From positions 57,354 through 121,353 of the forward strand of contig JAOACB010000003.1 in the NCBI GenBank assembly GCA_026418055.1: a stretch of 64,000 nt of DNA, in the 5' to 3' direction. The translations under genes were made by a program, and so were the position numbers. Below, one piece after another: positions 8,006 to 21,881 of the stretch. The stretch is from Fimbriimonadales bacterium. GTDB lineage: Bacteria > Armatimonadota > Fimbriimonadia > Fimbriimonadales > Fimbriimonadaceae. Below the pieces are notes generated by a model that was not told the origin of the DNA, made no database searches, and saw only the letters and a program-made list of their open reading frames with translations. The stretch's first letter is position 1. The number at the start of each line of letters is the position of its first letter.

Positions 8006-10306
8006 GTGGCCATGCTGCTGTGCGCGCTCCTCTGGACATCGGTGCTGATGAAGGACCCCTCATCGCAGATCGGCTCCAACTGGACGATCGGCGACGCCGG
8101 AACCCTGTTCTGGCAGGGAGCGCCTTACGTGCCGATGGGAGTTCAGTGCTCGCCCGACCAGATCCCCCAAGCGCCGAGCGCAGCGGATCTCCTTGTGACC
8201 GCGACTCCTGAACCAGCGGGATGGCCCTGGGTGGAAACCCTGGAGCGCAGAGGCAAACCGTATCTGCTTGAGTTCGGGTCTCCCGGGCCCGCAGCCGTGG
8301 GATTCACCGTCGAACCCCAAAGCTACCGCAGGGACGCGCCCACTGGGTCGCTGGAATTGAACTGCCGGCTTCCGGGCGCCGAAAGGGTCCTGGCGGTGCT
8401 CGCCGAAAAGCGCGACGCGTCGGTTCTTTGGCACCGCATCGTGGAGCCGGACGCCGACGGGGAGTTCCGCATTCGTGCCGAGGCTCGCGGTCGGGTGGAT
8501 GCCGTGCTGCTGCTGTATCCGGTGGGCGAGAGCAGAGCCACTGTGGACTTCTGGGAAGGGTTCGACGCGCACAGAGACGCCGTCCTTTCCACCTTGCGCA
8601 GGTCCCGCATAGGAGGAACCCTCCGCGCCGTTCTGAACCCCTTGGGTCGGAACCCGAGCTACCCCGGCCCGGAGACCCAGTTCGTGCCAACCAGCACCTT
8701 GTTCCGCATGGAATTGGAGAGGCATCTGCGCGACACGTACAAGAACTTCGTCACCGCCCAGAGAGCGTGGGGCTTGGGAGCTTCCGAACTCGAGGGCTTC
8801 GAAGACTTGGCGTCGCTGGTGCCCCTGTGGTCTGGGAAGCGCGGCCTTCAAGCGTTCTGGGACTCCAAACGGCAACGATTCTGGGGGGCCTCAACGGGCT
8901 CCTCCAGGGCTTGGCTGGATATTCGAGCGGTGATGCGCCAAGCCGCCATGCGCCGCTCCTCGTCGTTGTTCCAAGCAGTGAAGAGCCTTACCGGAGTGCC
9001 GGTCCTTCAAGAGTTCACCCAAGACGCAGACCTCTTCCAGGCGAGGCCCATCGGTTTGGATGGGCTGTGCGCCGCGTCGGAGGGCGCCACGATAGGCCAA
9101 CAGGCTCGGTCTGTGGCGTCGGCGGCGGCGGCGGCCCTCTCGTGGCGACCGTCTGGGTGGACGATCGTCAGTCGCCTCCAGTGGACGGGAGTTCCCGAGG
9201 AGTTGCCCGCCGTCGTGCAGGAGCTCGAGGCGCTCGGCATCAGAGGCGCTTTCGTGCCTCTGAGCATGCTTCGAAAGCCGGAGGTGTTGCTCGCTCCCTC
9301 GTTCAACCTTGGGGTTGCAGCGACCTCGCCGAAGGTTCTCGGCTTTCCCGTTGCCGCTTTCGAGCCTGCCCAGGTTCAAAGGCTCGCCTCCGGCTGGGTT
9401 TGGCTTCCCACGTCCGCCGCGGGCCGCCGCCTGGATTTCGGGCCCGAGTACCGCGGCTACTTCCAGGATGCAGGCTCGCCGACAACCGTTCTGTGGCGGA
9501 TCCGCGGAACGGAGCGCGTCCGCCTTCGGCACCCTTCGGCCAAGGAGCTGGTCTTCGAGACGCTCGATGGCTCTGATCCCAGACCTCGCGTGGTGAAGGG
9601 CGGCGTGGAGGTGACTGTAGGCGAATTGCCCCTCGTCGTCAAGGGCGGCTCCGAGCCTCCGGTCCCCGAACCTGCGATCGCTTGGACCGTGGCGCGCTTC
9701 GAAGGCCTGATCAAGCAGGCCGAGGCACTGAAGCGTGCGGCCCCAAGCGAGGTGTTCGGCTTCCGTCAGGCCTTGGCCGCTCTCGAGAAGAGCCCCTGGC
9801 CGAGCTACGCGGCCATGCGCGAGCGCTTCTGGCGCCTCAACCTACTTCTCGGCTCGTTCACTTGGATGGAGGCGGAATCCGCGCGATCGATGGCCGCTGG
9901 CGAGGTCATAGCCTCTCCCGGCGCCAGCGGAGACACTGCTCTGCGCCTCCAGGTGCCAGCGCGGCTCTCGCAGGAACCGATCGTAGTGGAGTATTCCCTT
10001 CCGGTCCGTAGCAACGCCGACCAGGAGCTTTGGGTAGCCGCGCGCCTGCCGGGGAACCAGGCAAGGAACGTCTCCCTGGTCCTGCAAGGCCAGCGTTGGC
10101 AACTGGCCGGACAGCCCCTCTCCGCCTACGGCCAAGGTTTCGCGTGGTACCGAGTCGGGGTCACGCGTCTCCAGACCGGCTATGCGGAGCTCAAGCTGGA
10201 GATCCTACCGGAGGAGGGCCTCGACCTCGGCTTCGACGCGTTCCTCCTCGCGCCGGTGGGGGTTCGACCCGACGGCCCTTGGATGCCGCTGACGCCCATC
10301 CCCTAG
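8006..10306 (+). CDS. Large exported protein, possible glycoside-hydrolase-like
   Basis: A 766-residue protein with an N-terminal hydrophobic signal (VAMLLCALLWTSVLM). I do not recognise the family with certainty. The N-terminal half contains GDAGTLFWQGAPYVPMGVQ, which resembles the opening of secreted TIM-barrel glycosidases, and a stretch about a sleeping-partner-like FRMELERHLRDTYKNF. The C-terminal part (FTWMEAESARSMAAG...) looks like a carbohydrate-binding beta-sandwich. Catalytic residues were not identified, so activity is an inference. The start GTG 8006 lies 7 nt after TAGGCT (7993-7998); ATG 8012 is the alternative. It overlaps the convergent VanX-like gene by 4 nt. Confidence 0.75.
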   Translation: MAMLLCALLWTSVLMKDPSSQIGSNWTIGDAGTLFWQGAPYVPMGVQCSPDQIPQAPSAADLLVTATPEPAGWPWVETLERRGKPYLLEFGSPGPAAVGFTVEPQSYRRDAPTGSLELNCRLPGAERVLAVLAEKRDASVLWHRIVEPDADGEFRIRAEARGRVDAVLLLYPVGESRATVDFWEGFDAHRDAVLSTLRRSRIGGTLRAVLNPLGRNPSYPGPETQFVPTSTLFRMELERHLRDTYKNFVTAQRAWGLGASELEGFEDLASLVPLWSGKRGLQAFWDSKRQRFWGASTGSSRAWLDIRAVMRQAAMRRSSSLFQAVKSLTGVPVLQEFTQDADLFQARPIGLDGLCAASEGATIGQQARSVASAAAAALSWRPSGWTIVSRLQWTGVPEELPAVVQELEALGIRGAFVPLSMLRKPEVLLAPSFNLGVAATSPKVLGFPVAAFEPAQVQRLASGWVWLPTSAAGRRLDFGPEYRGYFQDAGSPTTVLWRIRGTERVRLRHPSAKELVFETLDGSDPRPRVVKGGVEVTVGELPLVVKGGSEPPVPEPAIAWTVARFEGLIKQAEALKRAAPSEVFGFRQALAALEKSPWPSYAAMRERFWRLNLLLGSFTWMEAESARSMAAGEVIASPGASGDTALRLQVPARLSQEPIVVEYSLPVRSNADQELWVAARLPGNQARNVSLVLQGQRWQLAGQPLSAYGQGFAWYRVGVTRLQTGYAELKLEILPEEGLDLGFDAFLLAPVGVRPDGPWMPLTPIP

Positions 10307-17693: not shown

Positions 17694-18449
17694 TCAAGAG
17701 CCGCTCCGCCGGGGCCACGCGATCGGCGAAGATCCGGGGGGCGAGCCAAAGAGGAACGCATCTGCGGGCGAGTCCGTCGAGGGGAGGATCTCTGCCTCCC
17801 ATTGCACGCGCCTCAGCCTGCCACGGAGCGTCTCCTCCTGCGCCCACCGCAAGCCAGACAGCCGAATGTCGTCGCCCTGACCGTCGAGGAAGAACACGGC
17901 CCCTCGGAGGTTGTCGGGGGACCTCAGGGTGATGCGCCCCGGCTCGACCGTGGAACTGGCGAACGGGATCCACGCAGTCCAGCGAGGTTGATCGGCACCC
18001 CAGGTCTCTGCCAGCAGGCGAGCGACCCAACCGGTAGGTCCTCCCGACTGGGAGCGGAACGCCGAGAGCAACCTCCGAACAGCCCCCTCCGAAGGCGCGG
18101 CCGCGTGACCGCCGTAGTTCCACGCCGCATACCGTCGCAGGCCCGGCTCGTACAGCCAGAGCGTGCGGCCGTCCGCTACGTACCGACGGACCACCTCGCC
18201 GACGGCGTTCACCTCCCGGCACTCGAGCCTCGGTCCCACCTGGGAGCCCGGATTCGCTTCGAACCAGCAACGAACGGCGAACGAGCGTTGCCTCCCGTCG
18301 AACTCCTCGGTGCCAGCCAGGCGGATGGAAACCGAGCCTTGCCGCGCCAGGTTCCGCAGAGCCGCCTCCATCATGGCCTGGCCCGCGAGCTGGCCATGGG
18401 CGGCCGTGGCGACGCCCCAGAGGCAACCCAACCATCCAATCCTCGTCAT
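17694..18449 (-). CDS. Exported protein, possibly LolA-like fold
   Basis: A 251-residue protein with a signal peptide (MTRIGWLGCLWGVATAAHGQ). After it, a run of strands (VSIRLAGTEEFDGRQRSFAV, then RRYVADGRTLWLYEPGLRRY) resembles the LolA/LppX or DUF2092 type of lipid-carrier sheet, where the phrase about a variable written as DGxxLWxYxP is common. That assignment is an inference by pattern only. The ATG at 18449 gives the best signal; 16 codons upstream (18497) also remain open. It is divergent from thrS. Confidence 0.65.
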   Translation of the reverse strand: MTRIGWLGCLWGVATAAHGQLAGQAMMEAALRNLARQGSVSIRLAGTEEFDGRQRSFAVRCWFEANPGSQVGPRLECREVNAVGEVVRRYVADGRTLWLYEPGLRRYAAWNYGGHAAAPSEGAVRRLLSAFRSQSGGPTGWVARLLAETWGADQPRWTAWIPFASSTVEPGRITLRSPDNLRGAVFFLDGQGDDIRLSGLRWAQEETLRGRLRRVQWEAEILPSTDSPADAFLFGSPPGSSPIAWPRRSGS

Positions 18450-18494
18450 GCCCACCGATTGGACGATGCCCTGCCCAGAGAGGTTCGAACCGAC

Positions 18495-18500
18495 CATAAT
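18495..18500 (+). promoter_or_regulatory. -10 element CATAAT upstream of thrS
   Basis: CATAAT would give a leader of about 49 nt before thrS. The leader holds a small GAGGC/GCCTC hairpin, and no T-box motif is visible. Confidence 0.5.
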
Positions 18501-18555
18501 CCTTCTTGAGGCCGACCGCCTCGGTCATCGTCGATCCCTTGGTAGGGGAGGATTC

Positions 18556-20394
18556 ATGCAGCAACAAGCTTACGAAGAGAGCCGCCTGTACCGCTTGAGG
18601 CACTCCGCGGCGCATCTGATGGCCCAAGCGCTCACCGAGCTCTATCCCGGCGTCAAGCTGGCGATCGGACCACCCATCGAGAACGGCTTCTACTACGACG
18701 TCGAGTCTCCCGAGCCCATCCGGGAGGAGGATCTGCCCAAGATCGAGCAAAGGATGCGGGAGCTCGCAAACCTCAAGCAACCGATCGTGCGCAGGGTTGC
18801 CTCGAACCGCCAGGAGGCCCGCGCCATCATCCTGAGCGACTGCACCCTCGGCCAGGGCGAGCAGACCGCCGAGTACAAGCTGGAGCTGCTGGAGGCGGTC
18901 CCCGAAGGCGAGCCGATCAGCTTCTACGAGCAGGAAGCGATCGACAAACAGGGCAGGAGGCGGTACTTCATCGATCTTTGCAGGGGCCCCCACGTGGAGT
19001 CCACTGCCGAGGTCAAACACTTCAAGCTCATGTCGGTGGCTGGGGCTTATTGGCGCGGCGACGCCCGCAACAAGATGCTCACGCGCCTCTACGGCACCGC
19101 CTTCGAAACGAAGGAGGAGCTGGAGCAGTACCTGCATCGGCTCGAGGAGGCCAAGAGGCGCGACCACCGCATCCTAGGCCGCGACCTGGGACTGTTCCTC
19201 TTCTCTCCCCGCGTGGGTCCCGGACTGCCGTTGTGGCTGCCGAAGGGCACGGTCCTGCGCGAGGTGCTCAGCGACTTCCTCAAGGAGGAGCAACTCCGGC
19301 GCGGCTACCTTCCCGTGGTTACCCCGCACATCGCCTCGAGGCGGCTGTACGAGAAGTCGGGGCACATCATCACCTTCAAAGAGAAGATGTTCCCGTTCAT
19401 GGAGGACGAGGAGAAGGAGACCTTCATCCTGAAGCCCATGAACTGCCCCTTTCACATCGAGATCTACTCCTCACAGATGAGGAGCTACCGAGACCTGCCG
19501 ATCCGCCTGGCGGAGTTCGGCACGGTGTATCGCTACGAGCAGTCGGGCGAGCTCGCAGGCATGCTCAGGGTCCGGGGCTTCACCCAAGACGACTCCCATT
19601 TGTTCGTTCGGCCGGACCAGTTGCTGGACGAGTTCAAGGGAGTCGTCGACCTGATGATGACGGTGCTCGCCAAGCTCGGTCTCCGCGAGTACAGGGTGCG
19701 CCTTGGGACGCGGGACGAGGCCTCCGACAAGTACATCGGCCATCCCCAGAACTGGGAGGACGCCCAAACCGCCATCGAGCAGGCTTGCAGGGACCTAGGG
19801 CTGGAGTACGAGGTCTCCCCCGGCGACGCGGCCTTCTATGGTCCCAAGCTGGACCTCATCGTGAAGGATGCTTTGGGAAGGGACTGGCAGATGGGGACGG
19901 TGCAGGTCGACTACAACCTCCCCGAGCGTTTCGAGCTGGAGTATATCGGCGAGGACTCCAAGCCGCACCGGCCCATCATGATCCACCGCGCCCCGTTCGG
20001 CTCTCTGGAGCGGATGATCGGCCTTCTGACGGAACATTACGCCGGGGCCTTCCCGATGTGGATGGCCCCCGTGCAAGCCGTCGTGCTACCCATCGCCGAT
20101 CGGCACAACGAGGCGGCCCATGCGCTCGCCGAGATGCTGCGCGGCCGAGGGGAGTTCGGCGGCGTCCGGTGGCAGTTCTCCTTGCCGCTGAGGGTTTCGG
20201 TGGACGACCGCCGGGAGAGCCTGAACAAGAAGATTCGGGAGAACCAGCTCCAGAAGGTCCCTGTGATGCTGATCCTCGGCGATCGCGACTTGGAGAACGG
20301 CACGGTAGGAGTCCGGCATCGCGAGCATGGCGATCTGGGGCCAAAGCCTTTGGCCGAGGCCGTCCAGACCCTCGTTGAGGAACTGAGATCCTGA
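18556..20394 (+). CDS. thrS: Threonyl-tRNA synthetase lacking the N-terminal TGS domain
   Basis: A 612-residue class II synthetase. It has the editing domain (HSAAH at 16-20; CRGPH with Cys142 and His146) and the class II catalytic core with zinc ligand Cys297 in KPMNCPFH, followed by RVRGFTQDDSHLF and MIHRAPFGSLERM carrying the other ligands. The C-terminal anticodon domain ends ...VEELRS. A strong ribosome site (GGGGAGG) 4 nt before ATG 18556 fixes the start. The protein therefore begins directly at the editing domain, without the roughly 60-residue TGS domain of E. coli ThrRS. MNCPFH in place of MNCPGH is also known from TGS-less forms. Confidence 0.96.
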   Translation: MQQQAYEESRLYRLRHSAAHLMAQALTELYPGVKLAIGPPIENGFYYDVESPEPIREEDLPKIEQRMRELANLKQPIVRRVASNRQEARAIILSDCTLGQGEQTAEYKLELLEAVPEGEPISFYEQEAIDKQGRRRYFIDLCRGPHVESTAEVKHFKLMSVAGAYWRGDARNKMLTRLYGTAFETKEELEQYLHRLEEAKRRDHRILGRDLGLFLFSPRVGPGLPLWLPKGTVLREVLSDFLKEEQLRRGYLPVVTPHIASRRLYEKSGHIITFKEKMFPFMEDEEKETFILKPMNCPFHIEIYSSQMRSYRDLPIRLAEFGTVYRYEQSGELAGMLRVRGFTQDDSHLFVRPDQLLDEFKGVVDLMMTVLAKLGLREYRVRLGTRDEASDKYIGHPQNWEDAQTAIEQACRDLGLEYEVSPGDAAFYGPKLDLIVKDALGRDWQMGTVQVDYNLPERFELEYIGEDSKPHRPIMIHRAPFGSLERMIGLLTEHYAGAFPMWMAPVQAVVLPIADRHNEAAHALAEMLRGRGEFGGVRWQFSLPLRVSVDDRRESLNKKIRENQLQKVPVMLILGDRDLENGTVGVRHREHGDLGPKPLAEAVQTLVEELRS

Positions 20395-20411: not shown

Positions 20412-20439
20412 GGGGGCTTCCCCTACGGGCGAAGCCCCC
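20412..20439. terminator. Bidirectional terminator between thrS and the B12-regulated gene
   Basis: GGGGGCTTC (20412-20420) pairs with GAAGCCCCC (20431-20439), loop of 10 nt. It lies 17 nt after the thrS stop and 22 nt after the stop of the convergent small gene. Confidence 0.7.
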
Positions 20440-20461: not shown

Positions 20462-20665
20462 TCAGACCCTCTGGAACACGAGCTCGGGACGATCGCCGTC
20501 CCATCGGATCGACGCGAGAGAGTAACCCTCCTCCCGTTGCGCCTTGAGCAGCTCCAGGAACTCGGGCGGAAACTCTTCCAGGTTCGAACCGGTGTACCGG
20601 ATGATCCGGCAATCCAGAACCACGGCATTGGCGGCAACGCCGCTCGGAAGCGAGCTTGACTTCAT
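20462..20665 (-). CDS. 67-residue protein of unknown function, under a cobalamin riboswitch
   Basis: A small cytoplasmic protein with no family I recognise. It contains a beta start (NAVVLDCRIIRYTG), a helix (PPEFLELLKAQREEGYSLA) and a final strand (IRWDGDRPELVFQRV). No Cys-rich, membrane or signal features are present. The start ATG 20665 is supported by GGAGG (20671-20675) with normal spacing. It is the only gene between the riboswitch at 20797-20897 and the thrS terminator, so vitamin B12 status should control it alone. A role in B12 metabolism or in replacing a B12-dependent step is inferred only from that. Confidence 0.72.
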   Translation of the reverse strand: MKSSSLPSGVAANAVVLDCRIIRYTGSNLEEFPPEFLELLKAQREEGYSLASIRWDGDRPELVFQRV

Positions 20666-20736
20666 CCACACCTCCAGATTGGTGGCGCCCCGAGGCGCCG
20701 GACGGAGCCATCGGTGTGGAGCAGGAGGCGCGCGGC

Positions 20737-20753
20737 GGGGTCCGCTGGACCCC
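20737..20753 (-). promoter_or_regulatory. Expression-platform hairpin downstream of the riboswitch
   Basis: GGGGTCC pairs with GGACCCC around 3 nt. A second hairpin, GGCGCC-CCGA-GGCGCC (20684-20699), sits just before the ribosome site. One of them could sequester translation or transcription when cobalamin is bound. Between them I see no gene. Confidence 0.45.
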
Positions 20754-20796
20754 ATCCTATCGGCTCATGCTCGTGAGCGATGACAGGACGACGAGC

Positions 20797-20897
20797 GGCG
20801 AAGCGGGCATTCGGGCTTTCACCGTTGCGGCACAGCGCCGGAATTCCACCGGACTTCCCCCGTGTCTCAGTCCGGCCACGACAGCCGGACCTCCGCC
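20797..20897 (-). ncRNA. Cobalamin (vitamin B12) riboswitch aptamer, compact form
   Basis: On the minus strand the conserved core reads GGGGGAAGTCCGGTGG, then AATTCCGG and TGCCGCAACGGTGA, and ends with the B12-box-like AGCCCGAATGCCC. This matches the consensus GGGAA-GGTG-AATCC-CCGCAACNGT-AGYCNGAAxACC. GGCGGA (20892-20897) can pair with TTCGCC (20797-20802) as P1. At about 100 nt it lacks the large peripheral arms of class I, suggesting the compact class II type. It starts 44 nt after the end of the activase gene and faces the 67-residue gene at 20462-20665. Confidence 0.85.
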
Positions 20898-20940
20898 GTA
20901 AGAATGGTGGCACAGGCGGAGCAAGCCGCGCAACGCTCTG

Positions 20941-21840
20941 TCATCGAACGACGACCGGCTTGCCCGAGGCCTCCAAGACCGACGCGGCGGAGCGCAAGGC
21001 TTGCACCGAAGGCGGTTCGACTGCCCGAGACCGCGGAAGGCCAAGGCGATCCCGCTTCCCCTCCCCCAACCGATGGTAGCCGAGCAGCTCGATGCGCAGA
21101 ACCGATCGGCACCTTCCGATCCAATCCGCCATGGCTGCCAACTCGCTGGGCGCATCGTTGAATCCGGGGATCAGCGGGATGCGCACCCAAACCGGGGCGC
21201 GCTCGTCACCGAGCCTCCGCAGATTCTCCAGAATGAGCTCGTTCGACCTGCCGGTGCCGGACGCATGGAGGGCACCGTCGAAGGCTTTGAGGTCGTACAG
21301 CACCAAACTCGCTAGCGAAGCCGCGCGTTGGAGGACCTCCCAGCTCACGTGACCGGCGGTGTCGACTGCGGTGTGCAGGCCTCTGCATCCCAGCTCCGCC
21401 AGCAGCTCCAAGACGAACTCGGCTTGCAAGAGCGGCTCTCCGCCCGAAACGGTCACTCCTCCGCCGGACTGCTCGAAGAACGGCCGGTCGCGCTCCAGCT
21501 CCGCGACGGTATCCGAAACGGTCATCCGCCGCCCCACCCCTTGGATCGCGTCCGCGACGCACGCCTCCACGCACGCACCGCAAAGCTCGCACCGTTCTCG
21601 GTCGAAAGCGAACCGGTCCTCCACCCTCTCGCGGGCTCCCTTGGGGCAGGCGCGCACACATTCCGCGCATCCGATGCATCGTTCTGGGAATTCCTCGATG
21701 GAGAGGCCAGCATCCCAAGATTCCGGGTTGTGGCACCAGAAACACCTCAAGTTGCATCCCTTGAGAAAGACCGTCGTTCGGATGCCCGGGCCATCGGCCA
21801 CCGAGAAGCGCTGAATGTGGAAGACGAAGCCCGTCGCCAT
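20941..21840 (-). CDS. Glycyl-radical-enzyme activating protein (radical SAM)
   Basis: A 299-residue PFL-activase-like enzyme. It uses S-adenosylmethionine and a [4Fe-4S] cluster to place a glycyl radical on a partner enzyme. The radical SAM motif is C29-x3-C33-x2-C36 (GCNLRCFWCHNPE). Two ferredoxin-type clusters follow: C55/58/61/65 (CIGCAECVRACPKG) and C84/87/90/94. The SAM-binding motif VTVSGGEPLLQ comes later. This two-cluster layout is that of glycerol-dehydratase, HPA-decarboxylase and YjjW-type activases. No glycyl-radical enzyme gene is in the window, so its target is unknown. An ATG 18 nt upstream overlaps the CATAAT -10 and is not used. Confidence 0.9.
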   Translation of the reverse strand: MATGFVFHIQRFSVADGPGIRTTVFLKGCNLRCFWCHNPESWDAGLSIEEFPERCIGCAECVRACPKGARERVEDRFAFDRERCELCGACVEACVADAIQGVGRRMTVSDTVAELERDRPFFEQSGGGVTVSGGEPLLQAEFVLELLAELGCRGLHTAVDTAGHVSWEVLQRAASLASLVLYDLKAFDGALHASGTGRSNELILENLRRLGDERAPVWVRIPLIPGFNDAPSELAAMADWIGRCRSVLRIELLGYHRLGEGKRDRLGLPRSRAVEPPSVQALRSAASVLEASGKPVVVR

Positions 21841-21856
21841 GCGGCCCAGCGACCGC

Positions 21857-21881
21857 ATTATGCCACCGGGAGACCCATAAT
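21857..21881. promoter_or_regulatory. Divergent -10 elements between activase and glycosyltransferase genes
   Basis: A minus-strand CATAAT (21857-21862) faces the activase gene and a plus-strand CATAAT (21876-21881) faces the glycosyltransferase gene. The two hexamers are only 13 bp apart, so polymerase binding at one should block the other. Confidence 0.5.

Follow-up and report, generated by a model that had tools for sequence, protein, structure and literature searches.

A cobalamin riboswitch upstream of a single small-protein gene in the Fimbriimonadaceae, and a homologue of that gene in a riboswitch-led DUF4465 operon

Genes controlled by cobalamin riboswitches belong to B12 physiology, and an uncharacterized protein that is the sole target of such a switch therefore points directly to a step of that physiology not yet described. 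Some of these switches belong to regulatory RNAs, examples of which are AspocR of Listeria and EutX of Enterococcus. For the btuB and env8 switches, the published account describes a logic in which the bound ligand stabilizes the hairpin P13, which in turn favors a hairpin at the ribosome-binding site (PMC10653944). The class IIb-like riboswitch of ppe2 in M. tuberculosis has a small ORF, uPPE2, as its first target, and uPPE2 couples translation to the downstream gene (PMC11260477). A further point of comparison is the DUF4465, or BtuJ, family, whose Bacteroides members are described as binding cobamides with sub-nanomolar affinity and as carrying the motif MNTPSY (PMC12751083).

The DNA analyzed here (the window, 64,000 nucleotides of one contig) comes from a Fimbriimonadaceae MAG, G000, which comprises 2.89 Mb in 135 contigs and is placed by its kinship label in the same genus as two other genomes, G001 and G002. 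The best explanation of the locus, to which we assign a probability of roughly 0.6, is that a cobalamin riboswitch controls the translation of one small cytosolic protein belonging to the equipment for cobamide acquisition or handling, and does so as a translational OFF switch, whereby the protein would be made when B12 is scarce.

The aptamer and the gene behind it

A search of the 64-kb window with the Rfam covariance models returned one riboswitch match and no other, to RF01689 (AdoCbl-II) at 20876-20797 (-), with 47.2 bits against a gathering score of 36.5 (E 2.8e-8). A sequence-only reading of this DNA had placed a B12 aptamer at 20797-20897 on the minus strand, and the full span, 20796-20898, shows those limits to have been right within 1-2 bases. 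The same reading had described a GGAGG site followed by a lone 67-codon gene ahead of a thrS terminator, which is the arrangement found, the terminator being represented by a hairpin (20439-20412) without a U-run. The features concerned are the following.

20941..21858 (-), upstream neighbor, a glycyl-radical-enzyme activating protein (TIGR02494, 321 bits)
20796..20898 (-), cobalamin aptamer of the AdoCbl-II type, P1 to P1', from the RF01689 match at 20797-20876 plus the P1 pairing
20891-20898 and 20796-20803 (-), the two strands of P1, CGGCGGAG and CUUCGCCG
20870..20890 (-), P2 hairpin of 7 bp, GUCCGGC-UGUCGUG-GCCGGAC in the window
20671..20675 (-), Shine-Dalgarno sequence GGAGG, 5 nt before the ATG
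20462..20665 (-), 67-codon gene of a new small-protein family with a predicted beta-alpha-beta-beta, DUF4177-like fold (from dN/dS, homologues and AF2)
20412..20439 (no strand assigned), terminator-like GC-rich hairpin that separates the small gene from thrS, which is convergent to it; a hairpin in all three genomes of the genus, with different sequences
18163..20394 (+), thrS, the convergent neighbor, named by reading; limits from the ORF list, the true start lying further in

The aptamer resembles other class II cobalamin riboswitches (RF01689) in scoring above the gathering level, in lacking a P7-P11 arm between P6 and the B12 box, and in the P13-type hairpin downstream, the loop of which is conserved; it differs from them in that the target of the switch is a single small gene of unassigned function. 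A small ORF is also the first target of the ppe2 riboswitch, but uPPE2 couples its translation to a downstream gene (PMC11260477), whereas the small gene of the window has no same-strand gene behind it before thrS. The riboswitch, the small gene and their neighbors recur in G001 and G002 alike (loci L004 and L005), which speaks against a chance arrangement. In these two relatives P1 reads CGGCGAAG/CUUCGCCG, with the pairing retained as G-U or A-U, and P2 reads GCUCCGC-UGUCGUG-GCGGGGC, in which all seven pairs are still standard and the second has changed from U-A to C-G. The aptamer of L005 scores 49.6 bits against RF01689; that of L004 yields just a 24.6-bit fragment because a run of N (an assembly gap) breaks it.

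Judging by its substitution pattern, the 67-codon gene is real and under purifying selection. Between the window and L004, dN/dS is ~0.1 over residues 16-66 (NG86; dN 0.107, dS 1.063), with 8, 3 and 22 differences at codon positions 1, 2 and 3, respectively; the N-terminal 15 residues are variable. A longer frame starting at upstream ATGs (giving 97 aa in the window and 87 aa in L004 and L005) was rejected, as the ATGs are different ones and the position common to all three genomes does not fall in the reading frame of the window. These data bear on the proposal that the unit makes an antisense or other regulatory RNA, acting on the convergent thrS or elsewhere, in which the ORF is incidental. 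Cobalamin riboswitches are enriched among the antisense-acting ones (PMC9943018), and the unit in the window does converge on thrS. Against the proposal stand the purifying selection on the protein, the Shine-Dalgarno sequence, the terminator-like hairpin that precedes thrS in all three genomes, and a homologous protein in a fourth genome (G163, described below), where none of the ORFs read around its operon is thrS. That homologue also has no riboswitch of its own adjoining it, which we count, together with dN/dS and the Shine-Dalgarno sequence, in support of coding. We consider the antisense proposal highly improbable.

The upstream activating protein (20941-21858) has no adjacent glycyl radical enzyme; the single enzyme of this kind found in the window's genome is on another contig, where it adjoins an ATP-synthase gamma gene (atpG, by reading). 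A functional link between the small gene and this activase was considered and set aside, the genome's one such enzyme lying elsewhere and offering no B12 logic, and the shared neighborhood proving nothing by itself, because synteny across this genus is general.

The leader RNA and a predicted translational switch

Between the aptamer and the gene, the leader contains the elements listed here.

20756..20787 (-), P13-type hairpin, identical but for one base in the two relatives
20768-20773 (-), CGAGCA, apical loop of the P13-type hairpin and candidate L13 kissing loop
20737..20753 (-), spacer hairpin GGGGUCC-AGC-GGACCCC; the relatives have another sequence that is still a hairpin
20713..20720 (-), anti-Shine-Dalgarno strand UCCACACC, which pairs with GGUGUGGA at 20665-20672 over 8 bp, invariant in all three genomes
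20707..20722 (-), predicted alternative (antisequestor) pairing, of CGAUGGC (20707-20713) with GUCAUCG (20778-20784) and of UGCUC (20718-20722) with GAGCA of the P13 loop

The two possible switching hairpins noticed earlier in the sequence can now be equated with the P13-type hairpin on one side, and the mutually exclusive alternative pairing plus the Shine-Dalgarno helix on the other. The loop sequence CGAGCA lies downstream of the aptamer core, within 190 nt, in 26 of 31 related riboswitch loci (in one of the 26 the loop is too far downstream for P13), compared with 16 of 186 upstream control windows. In predicted folds the antisequestor pairing excludes both P13 and the Shine-Dalgarno helix, and constrained folding of the P13 state and the alternative state gave -60.3 and -62.0 kcal/mol for the window, -52.6 and -54.6 for L004, and -54.7 and -56.7 for L005. 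Two exclusive RNA states are thereby predicted to lie within about 2 kcal/mol of each other in all three genomes, and all of the strands that form them are conserved.

Because there are two exclusive states and because the published btuB and env8 switches follow the logic cited above (PMC10653944), we infer that the leader at 20898-20640 acts as a translational switch of the OFF sign. Binding of a cobamide would lead P13 to form; with P13 formed, UCCACACC would be free to cover GGUGUGGA, that is, the end of the Shine-Dalgarno sequence and the start region, and the protein would not be made. When cobamides are scarce, the 5' strand of P13 (GUCAUCG) and the loop would instead pair with CGAUGGC and UGCUC, an alternative that would occupy the anti-Shine-Dalgarno strand and thus allow the 67-residue protein to be made. 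Counted against the OFF sign are the partial pairing of the Shine-Dalgarno region in the predicted ON fold as well, and the candidate kissing loop, for which the search for L5-L13 pairs gave no assignment.

The small protein and its distribution

A search of 101 genomes (the window's own and 100 relatives) with the small protein matched four, namely its own, two members of the genus (71 and 72% identity) and one with an in-frame stop; among genome contigs it matched those of the two genus relatives alone (Armatimonadetes bacterium UBA8783 and an uncultured Fimbriimonadaceae bacterium), and among viral contigs none. When a profile of the three proteins of the genus was run against 291 Armatimonadota genomes, one further clean homologue came to light in G163, a member of another genus of the family, with an E-value of 3.8e-7 for that genome. 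The best remaining weak match, in G014 (3.5e-5), was rejected as a family member, because its frame contains a stop and its locus is devoid of a riboswitch, and it sets the noise level of the E-values in the profile search. The Smith-Waterman score of the G163 protein with that of the window is 96; no score above 51 arose in 20,000 shuffles, and among 3,432 background ORFs the runner-up has 44. Fourteen columns are invariant across all four proteins, including G26, G47, W55 and D58-R59-P60 in the window numbering.

By profile searches the family is accordingly present in four of the 291 genomes (G000, G001, G002 and G163), and hmmsearch of 43 riboswitch loci did not find the small gene in the other 42. 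The match at the remaining locus, L081 of G163, is circular, since the profile already held the G163 protein, and the independent evidence is that of the 291-genome search. From its presence in so few genomes and its absence from the 42 loci it follows that the small protein is not a core part of uptake; on this distribution most of the phylum can do without the family.

The protein is probably cytosolic, no signal peptide or membrane segment being evident on reading its sequence, and the four family members have no conserved His that could ligate cobalt. AF2 models of the window protein and of the G163 protein (pLDDT 82.6 and 67.6) agree in a strand-helix-strand-strand order after a disordered N-terminus. 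In database comparisons nothing in Pfam matched at the customary level (a single member reached E 0.17 with one family), NCBIfam gave just a 10-bit chance match, PDB sequences gave none, and Foldseek against the PDB returned nothing below E 0.1, while the rows of VIA-align top out at Z 5.5 (GFRP, KCTD and MinE), within the range of a common arrangement. Against viral models, Foldseek ranked two DUF4177 phage proteins third and fourth (E about 0.015). The Pfam profile for DUF4177 (PF13783) has no match above the cut-off in the proteins of G000-G002 or of G163; hhalign against DUF4177 scores 21.1, a value reached by none of 100 column shuffles (maximum 12.9), at a probability of just 22%. In its predicted beta-alpha-beta-beta fold the protein may remotely resemble DUF4177, the similarity being weak, and since the profile does not match and the profile-profile signal is weak, we call the protein DUF4177-like and not a DUF4177 member. 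Among the papers listed in the open literature, none ties DUF4177 to riboswitches or cobalamin.

Riboswitch-led DUF4465 operons and the link to B12

The homologue in G163 closes an operon (L081) that begins with a cobalamin riboswitch and continues with a prepilin, a DUF4465 protein (PF14717, 4.3e-55) and a PEP-CTERM protein.

L081 11080-11289, small gene of G163 (69 aa), with a GTG start preceded by AAGGAG and an 8-nt overlap with the stop of the gene before it

The operon is of the BtuJ type in being led by a riboswitch and in containing a DUF4465 gene, its riboswitch (8579-8675, E 0.00097) scoring 30.7 bits, under the RF01689 gathering score of 36.5. As in Bacteroides thetaiotaomicron, a riboswitch is combined with a DUF4465 protein that has the motif MNTPxY (the four DUF4465 proteins examined here carry MNTPAY); in contrast to the operons described there (PMC12751083), the partners are a prepilin and a PEP-CTERM protein instead of lipoproteins and BtuB, and the small protein is itself not a DUF4465 member. 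The orthologous prepilin-DUF4465-PEP-CTERM operon of the window's genome is on another contig (L052, C113), with proteins 61, 49 and 55% identical to those of G163. At its head stands the second riboswitch of this genome to be considered here, again a cobalamin one (RF00174, 46.1 bits; G000:C113:7494-7646; L002, L052), and the small gene is absent from the operon. Under cobamide scarcity, the 67-residue protein would be made together with this capture operon.

That one small gene stands behind B12 riboswitches in two genera, in contexts that are not linked to each other, ties it to B12, with one of these contexts being independent. The opposing view is that an ordinary B12 riboswitch has come, by chance, to precede a lineage-specific small gene without a role in B12 physiology; the family is known from just four genomes, as such a view would have it, but the two contexts and the conserved core speak against coincidence, and we hold it to be distinctly unlikely. 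The sequence-only reading had proposed a new B12-linked factor, possibly a chaperone, transport accessory or inhibitor. The homologue that ends a riboswitch-led DUF4465 operon supports the link to B12 while singling out none of the three roles; by way of operon context we favor an accessory part in acquiring or handling cobamides.

Alternatively, the small protein might modulate a B12-dependent enzyme and have no part in uptake, for example by holding NrdJ or by economizing on the cofactor of NrdJ during B12 shortage. G000-G002 have a single PF02867 gene each, that of G000 being NrdJ (TIGR02504, 476 bits) and G001 being 73% complete; the genus appears therefore to rely on the B12-dependent NrdJ alone for the large subunit of ribonucleotide reductase, and a shortage of B12 would then affect DNA synthesis. 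In G008 (L012, G008:C8) the gene behind an AdoCbl-II riboswitch is nrdB, which belongs to a B12-independent ribonucleotide reductase, and among the weak structural neighbors of the small protein is GFRP, itself small and active in enzyme feedback (Z 5.5, below the meaningful level). Against an enzyme target stands the coupling of the G163 homologue to surface capture proteins and not to an enzyme, and we judge this alternative unlikely. The genus has other proteins with B12-binding domains besides NrdJ; G008 also has a second reductase gene, which is NrdJ-sized (judged by size).

A more specific proposal can be made tentatively, although we would sooner doubt it than accept it: the 67-residue protein might found a new family of factors that handle cobamides in the cytosol, are made at no time other than B12 shortage, and deliver scarce B12 to, or hold, B12 enzymes such as NrdJ, and the gene might in this genus have left the capture operon and taken its own copy of a riboswitch. 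The second genus makes the lead testable, the small protein being coupled there to a cobamide-binding protein of the BtuJ type, and the family opens a view of a B12-capture system of the Armatimonadota built from prepilin-like and PEP-CTERM surface proteins. The prepilin/DUF4465/PEP-CTERM loci look like a capture system not previously described; in the open literature (most subscription journals are outside this scope), we found nothing on a cobalamin riboswitch with a small or orphan protein, a prepilin or DUF4465, or on one in Fimbriimonas.

Most cobalamin riboswitches of the Fimbriimonadaceae and their relatives have a prepilin-like gene directly under them, in 39 of the 43 loci examined (42 of the 55 riboswitch places found, plus G163), and this gene is often trailed by DUF4465 or other PEP-CTERM secreted proteins. 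A second recurrent pair follows the prepilin in L101, L105, L113 and L115, apparently in place of DUF4465. Its first protein is secreted, with roughly 260-280 aa and the pattern FA..V..SSNLG.GVY..P..ALG.PT.W, and its second has roughly 180-200 aa and the pattern W.G.G.NRAALVID.
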